Shown one piece after another: positions 25,867 to 28,795 of a stretch of 35,178 nucleotides of DNA. Both the position numbers and the translations under genes were made by a program. The notes beneath the pieces were generated by a model that saw nothing but the letters and a program-made list of their open reading frames with translations, was not told where the DNA came from and made no database searches. Source of the stretch: a virus; IMG/VR virus record IMGVR_UViG_3300034522_000100, positions 1-35,178 of that record; one strand, 5' to 3'. Position 1 is the stretch's first letter; each line of letters begins with the position of its first letter.

Positions 25867-26970
25867 ATGATCTTCATCAAAGATAGCCTGCGCGCAGCTG
25901 TGGAAGCCGCATCCGGCGGCACCGTCACTGTGCTCTACACCGCCAAGGGCCAGCCGACCTACATGCATGTCATCCCGCGCTTTAATTTGCAAGACATTGA
26001 CCCGGCGCTGGGCAATGGCACCCACCCGGCATTCATTGTCAACGGCGTTGAAAAGTCAGAGCTGTTTATCGGCCAGCACACCGGCTGCCTGCGCGACGGA
26101 GAGCTGTTGTCGCTGCCGGGCGTCGAGCCACTGCATTCAGTGACCTTTGACGAGGCGCTGGCCTATGGCTCAGCCTGCGGCCTGGGCTTCCACGCCATGA
26201 CTCACGCCGAGCAGTCCGCCATCGCCCACTGGTGCAAAAAAAATGGCTTTATGCCACGCGGCAACACTGCCTACGGGCGCAGCTCAGACGCGCCATTTGA
26301 AACCGCCCGCCGCGCCGACGGCGGCGCGCCGGGCGCAACATCCGGTAACCCGCGCACCCTGACCGGATCGGGCCCGGTCAGCTGGCGTCACAACAACAAT
26401 CCCAACGGCATCGCCGACCTCTGCGGCAACGTCTGGGAGTGGCGCGGCGGCCTGCGCACTGTGGACGGCGAAATCCAGGTGCTGGCCAACAACAACGCCG
26501 CCGACAGCAAAAACAGCCAGACCAAAGCATCATCAGCATGGCGCGCCATCTCGGCCAGCACCGGCGAACTTGTAGCACCAGGCAGCGCCGGCACGCTGAA
26601 ATACGACGCATCAGCAGCCGGCACCACCACTGACCATGGCGCACCAGTGCTATCTGATGCGGTCAGCAATCGCAACGGCGACGCGGGCAGCGACGAACAC
26701 ACTCCAGGACACACCGCCGAGGCATTTGAAAAAATCACCAGCAAGGCGGGATTGATAGTGCCAAGCATTGCCAAAGCGCTGTCGCTGTTCCCGCTCGACG
26801 CCAGCCACGGCGGCGACGTGCTCTACGTGCGCAACTACGGCGAGCGCCTCGCCCTCTCCGGCGGCAACTGGGGCGACGGCGCCAGTGCTGGCGTGTTCGC
26901 GCTCTACCTGGCCGACGCTCGGTCGGCTCGGGGCACGCCCATTGGGGCTCGCCCGGCCTTTGTGCTGTAA
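25867..26970 (+). CDS. DGR target: C-type-lectin/FGE-like variable tail protein
   Basis: A 367-residue protein, probably the receptor-binding tip. The N-terminal 60 residues are strand-rich; from about 85 the protein reads as a formylglycine-generating-enzyme/C-type-lectin fold (VTFDEALAYGSACG, NPNGIADLCGNVWEWRGG, SGGNW), as in DGR targets such as TvpA and phage Mtd-like proteins. The last 40 residues (from 327) are the variable repeat ending in IGARPAFVL. Codons that vary from the template are 330, 336, 337, 340, 347, 349, 350, 354, 356, 358 and 364, while W335 and the GVFAL core are kept. An AAGGAG site precedes it. The FGE likeness reflects fold, not expected enzyme activity. Confidence 0.92.
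   Translation: MIFIKDSLRAAVEAASGGTVTVLYTAKGQPTYMHVIPRFNLQDIDPALGNGTHPAFIVNGVEKSELFIGQHTGCLRDGELLSLPGVEPLHSVTFDEALAYGSACGLGFHAMTHAEQSAIAHWCKKNGFMPRGNTAYGRSSDAPFETARRADGGAPGATSGNPRTLTGSGPVSWRHNNNPNGIADLCGNVWEWRGGLRTVDGEIQVLANNNAADSKNSQTKASSAWRAISASTGELVAPGSAGTLKYDASAAGTTTDHGAPVLSDAVSNRNGDAGSDEHTPGHTAEAFEKITSKAGLIVPSIAKALSLFPLDASHGGDVLYVRNYGERLALSGGNWGDGASAGVFALYLADARSARGTPIGARPAFVL
26847..26959 (+). repeat. DGR variable repeat (VR)
   Basis: 113 bp at the 3' end of the target gene, ungapped match to the TR 621 bases downstream. It differs at 16 positions: 26854, 26872, 26873, 26875, 26885, 26905, 26911, 26912, 26914, 26926, 26927, 26932, 26933, 26938, 26939 and 26956. In each the TR has A and the VR has G, C or T. 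The GC-rich end (26944-26955) is the expected start of mutagenic homology (IMH). Confidence 0.95.
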
Positions 26971-26988
26971 GCACCGTGACTTTGCAAC

Positions 26989-27006
26989 GCCCCGCGAGAG
27001 CGGGGC
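26989..27006. promoter_or_regulatory. DGR DNA hairpin/cruciform downstream of VR
   Basis: GCCCCGC-GAGA-GCGGGGC, a perfect 7-bp stem with a four-base loop, 29 bases after the VR end and 18 after the target stop. Hairpins of this size with a GNRA-like loop just behind the IMH are needed for efficient cDNA integration in the Bordetella phage DGR. It lies just before the Avd ribosome site (27011-27017), so it could also terminate or protect the mRNA. Confidence 0.8.
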
Positions 27007-27022
27007 ACATAAGGAGGCGCAA

Positions 27023-27430
27023 TTGGCGAACCCGCAAAAACCAGATCCATCAGGCGTGCTGTTGGTGCGCAAATACGTAGAGCTGGCGGCCAAGCTCAAC
27101 ACCTACCTCAACCACTGGCCGCATCACGAAAAGTACGGGCTAGCACAACAAGTGCGCACCACGCTTTATGACTGCTACAAGCTGATGGTTGAAGGGCACA
27201 AGCGCTACCACAAAAAGACCACTCTGACCCAGCTGGACGTGGGGCACGAGCAGTTGCGCATGCTGCTGTATCTGGCCTATGAGCTGGGCTATTTCGCCCA
27301 CCACAAAGGCAAGTCAGCCCCGCCGAATGTCGGCGAGCGCCGCTGGATGGTCATATCTAACGCCGTTGACGAAATCGGCAGAATGATAGGTGGCTGGATT
27401 AAAAAAGAGCAAGCATTAACAAAGCAGTAA
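27023..27430 (+). CDS. avd: Avd-like accessory variability determinant of the DGR
   Basis: A 135-residue basic helical protein between target and template. In Bordetella phage the Avd pentamer binds the reverse transcriptase and the template RNA and is needed for mutagenic cDNA synthesis. The family look (four-helix bundle; LVRKYVELAAKLNTYLNHWP, KYGLAQQVRTTLYDCYKLM, LAYELGYFAHHK, ERRWMVISNAVDEIGRMIGGW) and size (128 in BPP-1) fit well. The start is TTG 27023, chosen because AAGGAGG is five bases upstream; no ATG is near it. Confidence 0.9.
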   Translation: MANPQKPDPSGVLLVRKYVELAAKLNTYLNHWPHHEKYGLAQQVRTTLYDCYKLMVEGHKRYHKKTTLTQLDVGHEQLRMLLYLAYELGYFAHHKGKSAPPNVGERRWMVISNAVDEIGRMIGGWIKKEQALTKQ

Positions 27431-27718
27431 CAGGAACAGGGGTTGACCATCAATATGTTTTTTCGTTCCTCGCCATCTCCGGCGGCAACTGGAACAACGG
27501 CGCCAATGCTGGCGTGTTCGCGCTCAACCTGAACAACGCTCGGTCGAATCGGAACACGAACATTGGGGCTCGCCCGACCTCGGATCCTCCTCACAGTCAA
27601 ATGAGACAACGTGGAGCCAAAGGGGTGGTTAATCCCGCCAGACGGCGAAATCAGCAGCGCGCGGGTTTTCAGTAGCGGCCATCCGTCGACCATCACCCGC
27701 GCCACCATCGAGCAATAA
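27431..27718 (+). ncRNA. DGR template RNA region (TR plus spacer)
   Basis: 288 bases without a convincing gene between avd and the reverse transcriptase. They hold 37 bases of leader, the TR, and a 138-base spacer to the RT start. In BPP-1 the RNA from avd end through TR and this spacer primes its own cDNA synthesis, so the whole stretch is the likely template RNA. The antisense open frames across it are shadows. Confidence 0.75.
27468..27580 (+). repeat. DGR template repeat (TR)
   Basis: 113 bp, homologous to the VR. It holds 24 adenines, 20 of them in ten AAC/AAT codons when read in the VR frame. AAY codons cannot mutate to stop codons by adenine changes and reach many amino acids; this is the usual DGR template design. 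Homology ends sharply on both sides (TT versus GC before 27468, CGG versus TTG after 27580). Confidence 0.95.
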
Positions 27719-28795
27719 ATGAAAACACACAAAAACCTGATGGCGAAAATTCTAGCGCCAGACAACCTGATCGCAGCGTGGCAAACCGCCCGCAAGCGAA
27801 AAACGCGCACCCGCGCCGTGCTGGCATTCGACATTCGCGCCGGTGCCATCCTGGCCGAGCTAAGCAATCGCATCAAGCAAGGAACATACCGGCCGCGCGA
27901 ATACAGGCGATTCCAGGTCTGCGAGCCAAAACAGAGGGAAATATGCGCCCCATGGTTCGGCGATGTCGTCATTCAGCACGCCATATATCGCGTCATCATG
28001 CCGCTCTTTGAGCGCCGCTTTATCGATCAGAGTTACGCCTGCCGCCCAGGCAAAGGCACCCACAAGGCCGCCGACTACGCCCAGGCCGCCCTGCGCGCCA
28101 GCAAGCCAGACAGCTACACCCTCAAGCTGGACCTGCGAAAATTCTTCTACCGCATCGACCGCACCATTCTGGAGCGGCAAATCCGCACAGTGATAGGCGA
28201 CGAGGCGCTAGTCAGGCTGATGATGACATTTGCTAGCCTGCCAGAGCCGCTCGGGATCCCCATTGGCAACCTGCTGTCGCAGCTTTACGCGCTCATCTAT
28301 CTGAATCCGCTCGACCACTTCATCAAGCGCCAGCTAAAAGTTCGCCAATATTGCCGCTACGTGGATGACTTCATTCTGTTCGACCTGAGCCGTGAGCAAG
28401 CTGTAAGCCACAAAGCAGCCATCGAGGAGTTTATTGCCAGAGAGCTGGGCATGACCTATTCAAAGTGGACCATCGCGCCCGTTCGTCGTGGCGTGAACTT
28501 CGTTGGCTATCGCACTTGGCGTGGCAGGCGATTTATCCGCAAGCACTCAATGATCAAATTCAATCGCGCCATCCGCCGAGCCAACTGGCCTGCAGCAATA
28601 TCGATACTGGCCCACGCCCGCAGAACGTCTTCATGCGCAAGGATGCAGGGCGCTATAAAACAGCGCCGCCAGGAGAGGGAGGTGGCCATCGTGCCGAGCG
28701 TCGCGATTAGCGAGCCTTGTCACCGCTTCGCCAGTGTGTACGGCCCTCACACACTGGCCGCCGCTCGCCTGACATCCCCTGCCCCTGCATCCTGA
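27719..28795 (+). CDS. DGR reverse transcriptase
   Basis: A 358-residue group-II-intron-like reverse transcriptase that makes adenine-mutated cDNA from the TR. Motifs: LDLRKFFYRID (motif 3, D-x-R-K-F-F), IPIGNLLSQ at about 181-188 (the I/LGxxxSQ form typical of DGR enzymes in place of QGxxxSP), the catalytic YVDD at 214-217, and a GVNFVGYRTWRGRRFIR thumb-start. The palm is complete. There is no maturase or endonuclease domain. The last 25 residues are encoded by DNA that also carries the third late-operon dyad. The ribosome site before ATG 27719 is weak. Confidence 0.95.
   Translation: MKTHKNLMAKILAPDNLIAAWQTARKRKTRTRAVLAFDIRAGAILAELSNRIKQGTYRPREYRRFQVCEPKQREICAPWFGDVVIQHAIYRVIMPLFERRFIDQSYACRPGKGTHKAADYAQAALRASKPDSYTLKLDLRKFFYRIDRTILERQIRTVIGDEALVRLMMTFASLPEPLGIPIGNLLSQLYALIYLNPLDHFIKRQLKVRQYCRYVDDFILFDLSREQAVSHKAAIEEFIARELGMTYSKWTIAPVRRGVNFVGYRTWRGRRFIRKHSMIKFNRAIRRANWPAAISILAHARRTSSCARMQGAIKQRRQEREVAIVPSVAISEPCHRFASVYGPHTLAAARLTSPAPAS
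28731..28757 (+). promoter_or_regulatory. Late-operon dyad, copy 3 (before FI, inside the RT gene end)
   Basis: CCAGTGTGT and ACACACTGG form a perfect 9-bp inverted repeat with a 9-base spacer that differs from the other copies; flanking GCCGCC is kept. The dyad centre is 115 bases before the FI start. It overlaps the last codons of the reverse transcriptase (FASVYGPHTLAAA). Confidence 0.7.

Follow-up and report, generated by a model that had tools for sequence, protein, structure and literature searches.

The DGR locus and its hairpin

The window, that is, the whole stretch of 35,178 bases analysed here, is phage DNA from one IMG/VR record, carrying P2-like tail genes, as judged by profile matches to tail protein I and sheath. 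Between these two genes lies a complete diversity-generating retroelement (DGR), arranged in the order target, VR, hairpin, avd, TR and RT (Table 1). The target gene occupies the tail-fibre position of a P2-like phage and ends with the stop codon TAA at 26968-26970. Over the region that could be matched, the RT shares 38% identity with BPP-1 Brt. Besides RT and Avd, the locus contains a TR/VR pair with adenine-specific differences: the two repeats differ at 16 positions and all of them (16/16) fall on TR adenines, indicating that this DGR has mutated its own target.

Table 1. Coordinates of the DGR features in the window
Feature	Position	Strand	Evidence
DGR target gene, 367 aa, FGE-sulfatase/C-type-lectin type	25867..26970	+	Pfam FGE-sulfatase 1.3e-05; translation
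Variable repeat (VR)	26847..26959	+	TR/VR comparison
VR-to-hairpin spacer, 29 nt	26960..26988	+	sequence
Hairpin GCCCCGC[GAGA]GCGGGGC	26989..27006	+	sequence, folding
Shine-Dalgarno (SD) AAGGAGG of avd, outside stem	27011..27017	+	sequence
avd, 135 aa, likely TTG start at 27023	27023..27430	+	bAvd E 1e-14; translation
Template repeat (TR)	27468..27580	+	TR/VR comparison
Reverse transcriptase (RT), 358 aa, RVT_1	27719..28795	+	Pfam RVT_1 E 1.3e-16

The first-pass annotation had described a perfect 7-bp GC stem with a 4-base loop, placed just behind the VR and immediately upstream of the avd ribosome site, and all of this could be read directly from the sequence. Positions 26989-26995 pair with 27000-27006, exclusively by G-C pairs, and enclose the GAGA loop at 26996-26999. 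The hairpin begins 29 nt past the last TR-matching base of the VR, and gaps of 4 nt and 17 nt separate it from the SD and the avd start, respectively. No other GRNA-loop hairpin in the 35,178 bases has a stem that reaches 7 bp, and dinucleotide shuffles of the window predict 0.13; when the 100 nt following the VR were shuffled 20,000 times, a 7-bp tetraloop stem with any loop sequence appeared in 167 cases. The overall folding stability of the 101-nt stretch containing the hairpin is ordinary (z -0.6), so that what stands out is the local hairpin at this particular site.

Within the 29-nt spacer, a weak 5-bp mini-hairpin, GTGCT[GTA]AGCAC, spans the target stop codon at 26962-26974. Folding of this small stem would shorten the gap between VR and main hairpin to about 16 nt, which is typical of the clade, although a role for it in compensating for the long spacer is unproven.

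Conservation of the hairpin and its link to the DGR

In BPP-1, the corresponding element consists of a 7-10 bp GC stem and a 4-nt GRNA loop in the sense strand, located 4-34 bp behind the VR, the stem acting by its structure and the loop by its sequence (Guo 2011, PMC3240598). The window hairpin falls within these limits for stem (7 bp, all G-C), loop (GAGA, sense strand) and distance (29 nt). It also shares with BPP-1 the location behind the VR and before avd, the perfect pairing and the gene order from target to RT. The BPP-1 hairpin has an 8-bp stem and a GAAA loop, and it lies 19 nt from the last TR-matching base by the same measure; an SD between stem and avd is found in the window, unlike in BPP-1. 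Closer to the window, the DGR of Pseudomonas phage Bise (OR683401, L093), whose RT is 61% identical, carries the hairpin GGGTGC[GGTA]GCACCC behind its VR, differing in stem and loop sequence and lying 118 nt from the avd start instead of 17 nt. Inverted repeats behind the VR were likewise described in nanoarchaeal DGRs, where they have GRA three-base loops and lie within the target gene (Paul et al. 2015, PMC4372165).

In order to compare the hairpin across relatives, DGR loci were gathered by RT, target and Avd similarity, named phages were added, and TR/VR pairs were identified by A-specific mismatch. The resulting set comprised 131 non-redundant DGR VR 3' flanks; the second "VR" of L281 was left out because of 5 non-A changes, and the VR end of L221 is probably misplaced. 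A GNNA-loop hairpin, nearly always GRNA, was found behind the VR in 124 of the 131 flanks. When bulges and G.A pairs were allowed, GRNA hairpins with at least 5 pairs were present in 41/41 members of the window's RT clade and in 32/35 of the BPP-1 clade, compared with about 3 in shuffled controls, and control regions upstream of the VR contained one in 4/40 and 2/33 cases. A perfect-stem search had suggested that most relatives are devoid of the hairpin, an artefact of disallowing bulges and tandem G.A. Perfect tetraloop stems numbered 87 in the 131 flanks (7.05 in shuffles); 83 of them, each 5 bp or longer, had a GRNA loop (0.35 in shuffles). The tetraloops of the longest stems were GRNA in 82 of 86 cases, where chance would give 1 in 32.

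Compensatory stem changes, which the first-pass annotation had proposed to look for in related phages, were indeed observed. Watson-Crick pairs make up 77-81% of stem ranks 3-6, whereas shuffling the partners gives 30-39% and at best 52%; as many as four types of pair occur at one rank. The 118 loci compared contain 75 distinct 6-bp stems, so that, as for BPP-1, structure is conserved and sequence is free. Related active DGRs without any stem had been named as the observation that would speak against a functional element. None was found in the window's RT clade; among DGRs distant from the window's, no such hairpin was detected in L163, L286, L288, L294 and one of the two L287 VRs, which are nevertheless active, indicating that the element is common and not universal. 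In two other loci, L166 and L206, the stems are long and enclose loops of 7 and 8 nt.

Five of these phages (L163, L166 and L286-L288) contain two VRs each, and a period of 7-8 nt (z 6.8 at lag 8) runs through their VR 3' flanks, most of which have no GRNA hairpin; it could be a cis-element of its own at the VR end.

The presence of the hairpin follows that of the DGR. Among homologues of the target gene, an intact GRNA hairpin was found in 30 of 35 with a DGR and in 0 of 7 without (Fisher p 3e-5), and five of the latter seven have no comparable GC-rich stem. The closest target homologue, L167 (75% target identity, same downstream sheath gene), does not contain avd-TR-RT. Its aligned stem reads CACCCCGC[CCAGT]GCGGGGTG: the outer G-C pair of the window is replaced by A-T, and the loop, CCAGT, is no longer GRNA. 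A homologous stem can thus exist without a DGR, and it is the GRNA loop that goes with the DGR.

Strand asymmetry of the hairpin

Imperfect hairpins were used to compare the two strands. On the RT tree, a quick FastTree with weak inner support on which change counts are rough, single mismatches near the loop were G.T in 9 changes and A.C in 1 (p 0.02), bulges arose 12 times in the 3' arm and never in the 5' arm (p 0.0005), and tandem mismatches at ranks 3-4 were G.A in 20 loci through 15 changes, with no tip carrying tandem T.C at these ranks. By DNA parameters, the sense hairpin is more stable than its antisense counterpart in 118 of 124 cases, with means of -8.1 and -7.3 kcal/mol. Together with the GRNA loop, these strand-asymmetric imperfections speak for folding of the sense strand rather than for a symmetric cruciform. 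The sequence comparison suggests that the element works near the VR, in the form of a folded sense strand, and not as a switch for the next gene.

The loop also bears on the nature of the folded molecule. T is the commonest base at loop position 3 (46 of 82 GRNA loops), whereas the RNA GNRA rule demands a purine there, so that GAGA complies with this rule and the hairpin family does not. In DNA, GNNA loops closed by at least two G-C pairs are known to give mini-hairpins of extraordinary stability (PMC4686876); both points make DNA the more likely form.

A group of bipartite hairpins with tandem G.A (e.g. L022, L076 and L272) occupies the same place as the window hairpin and has a GRNA loop, mostly GATA, with 2 closing Watson-Crick pairs. 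Unlike the window hairpin, they contain tandem G.A in the stem, often a bulged base in the 3' arm, and they often overlap the avd start codon. Their layout is an outer stem, a bulged T, tandem G.A and GC[GATA or GGTA]GC; in L012, L017, L022, L043, L086, L088, L214 and L236 the avd ATG lies within the 3' arm.

Another feature was observed between the VR end and the hairpin, namely an AATCTGN-like array of period 7 in 2-5 copies (L229, L233, L203, L174, L211 and others). It occurs in 25 long-spacer DGRs, mostly behind the target stop codon, and the z-scores of their self-match are 11.9 at lag 7 and 6.1 at lag 14. Among 32 long spacers, TG-TG distances of 7 occur 65 times, compared with 17 in shuffles. 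The array is weak or absent in the window.

Taken over the whole family, we tentatively propose, at slightly less than even confidence, that the DGR target hairpin is a strand-specific ssDNA hairpin on the sense (cDNA-complementary) strand and not a symmetric cruciform. Its core would be the mini-hairpin d(GC-GNNA-GC), the tandem sheared G.A and the 3'-arm bulge of its imperfect forms would identify it as a shape that the DGR machinery reads, and in many DGRs it would be joined to the period-7 array. Neither the asymmetry between the strands nor the bipartite G.A hairpins nor this heptamer array was found described in the freely accessible papers searched. The tandem G.A and 3'-bulged forms provide natural variants ready for homing assays, as does a reversed hairpin, GTCGCGC[TATC]GCGCGAC, found 36 nt after the VR in L225 and L226, which places GATA on the antisense strand. 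These two are near-identical contigs whose DGR is apparently active, and they constitute a natural experiment on strand choice.

A probable retrohoming role and its alternatives

We consider with high confidence that the window hairpin is the target-recognition hairpin of a BPP-1-type DGR, i.e. a sense-strand fold that would aid the entry of cDNA into the VR, and a role in retrohoming is very likely. The first-pass annotation had proposed a dual role, in retrohoming and in mRNA control. The first half is strengthened by the match to the BPP-1 features, the covariation and presence in 124 of 131 flanks, the rarity upstream of the VR and the absent or damaged hairpins where the DGR is missing. 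That the hairpin raises retrohoming efficiency, and how it would do so, we infer from BPP-1 and E. coli experiments. BPP-1 stem mutants fail even when avd is supplied in trans (Guo 2011, PMC3240598). In E. coli, repair drops severely once the BPP-1 stem-loop is deleted, and targets that run in the direction of replication are preferred, from which the authors of this 2026 reconstitution infer cDNA annealing to the single-stranded lagging-strand template (PMC12875486).

These data are consistent with the following scheme. Phage DNA would be locally opened by replication, transcription or supercoiling, and the sense strand immediately 3' to the VR could then fold into the GC stem capped by the GRNA loop. 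This fold may keep the VR end open, or it may be recognised by Avd/RT or a host factor. The mutagenised cDNA made from the TR is antisense to the VR and thus pairs with the sense strand; its annealing to the sense-strand VR would lead to integration. The comparative data favour a folded sense strand over a symmetric cruciform, which matches the recent lagging-strand proposal.

Several observations count against the retrohoming reading. The spacer of 29 nt exceeds the 13-20 nt of the nearest VR-bearing relatives, and lengthening the BPP-1 spacer leads to a gradual drop in activity; the L225/L226 hairpin is reversed, and inversion of the entire target in phage BPP-1 made no difference (Guo 2011, PMC3240598). 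The distant active DGRs without the hairpin and the persisting stem of DGR-less L167 point the same way.

The second half of the dual-role proposal fared less well. A hairpin working as an mRNA element at the target-avd junction, tuning avd re-initiation or ribosome access with or without a retrohoming role, would explain its distance of only 4 nt from the SD, and an RNA fold would likewise fit the sense-strand bias. With avd starts assigned by similarity and some of them uncertain, 20 of 121 relatives begin avd within the hairpin, usually without an SD, several of them having the avd ATG in the 3' arm. However, neither the SD nor the TTG of the window is paired by the stem, and a switch that sequesters or occludes the SD was rejected on this ground. 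Moreover, the position of the hairpin tracks the VR and not avd: the distance from hairpin end to avd start has an sd of 47.7 nt (range -41 to +325), compared with 9.8 nt from VR end to loop, and in the nearest VR-bearing relatives (L006-L009, L093) avd is mostly 118-152 nt away. The preference for T at loop position 3 and the defect of BPP-1 stem mutants despite avd in trans also argue against it. We therefore regard this explanation as improbable; control of mRNA by the hairpin is not general and is unproven, and translation may be affected secondarily, most plausibly where the hairpin of a relative contains the avd ATG.

Even less probable is a general mRNA 3'-end stabiliser or terminator between the target and the next gene, unrelated to the DGR. 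The aligned stem in L167 speaks for such a role, but this sibling is missing precisely the GRNA loop that BPP-1 needs, and the other DGR-less homologues mostly have no such GC-rich stem. An intrinsic terminator was rejected since no T-run follows the stem, which is followed by ACATAAGG. Finally, that an inverted repeat arose here by chance, the genome being rich in GC (62%), has a negligible probability. This is refuted in practice by the covarying conservation in relatives, and the correct place and loop also count against it, even though tetraloop stems of at least 7 bp number seven in the window against 3.3 expected.

The window hairpin extends the known BPP-1 element to a P2-like phage DGR of which BPP-1 is only distant kin, and the roughly 130 natural variants bring evolutionary evidence on how cDNA finds and enters the VR.

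Two further structures were noticed downstream. In the window's clade, a GGTGGAACCAAGGGAGRYGYTTTCCGG-like conserved stretch lies between TR and RT (e.g. L022, L049 and window positions 27581-27660) and is probably a structured part of the DGR RNA; an excess of stems behind the TR in this clade (13/41) was found to be distinct from the VR hairpin and looks like conserved DGR RNA structure. At 28731-28757, within the final codons of the RT ORF, lies the inverted repeat CCAGTGTGT/ACACACTGG, which DGR-less L167 shares with a compensatory G-C to T-A change. This repeat seems to belong to the phage backbone, and the C-terminal end of the RT may thus be read into backbone DNA.
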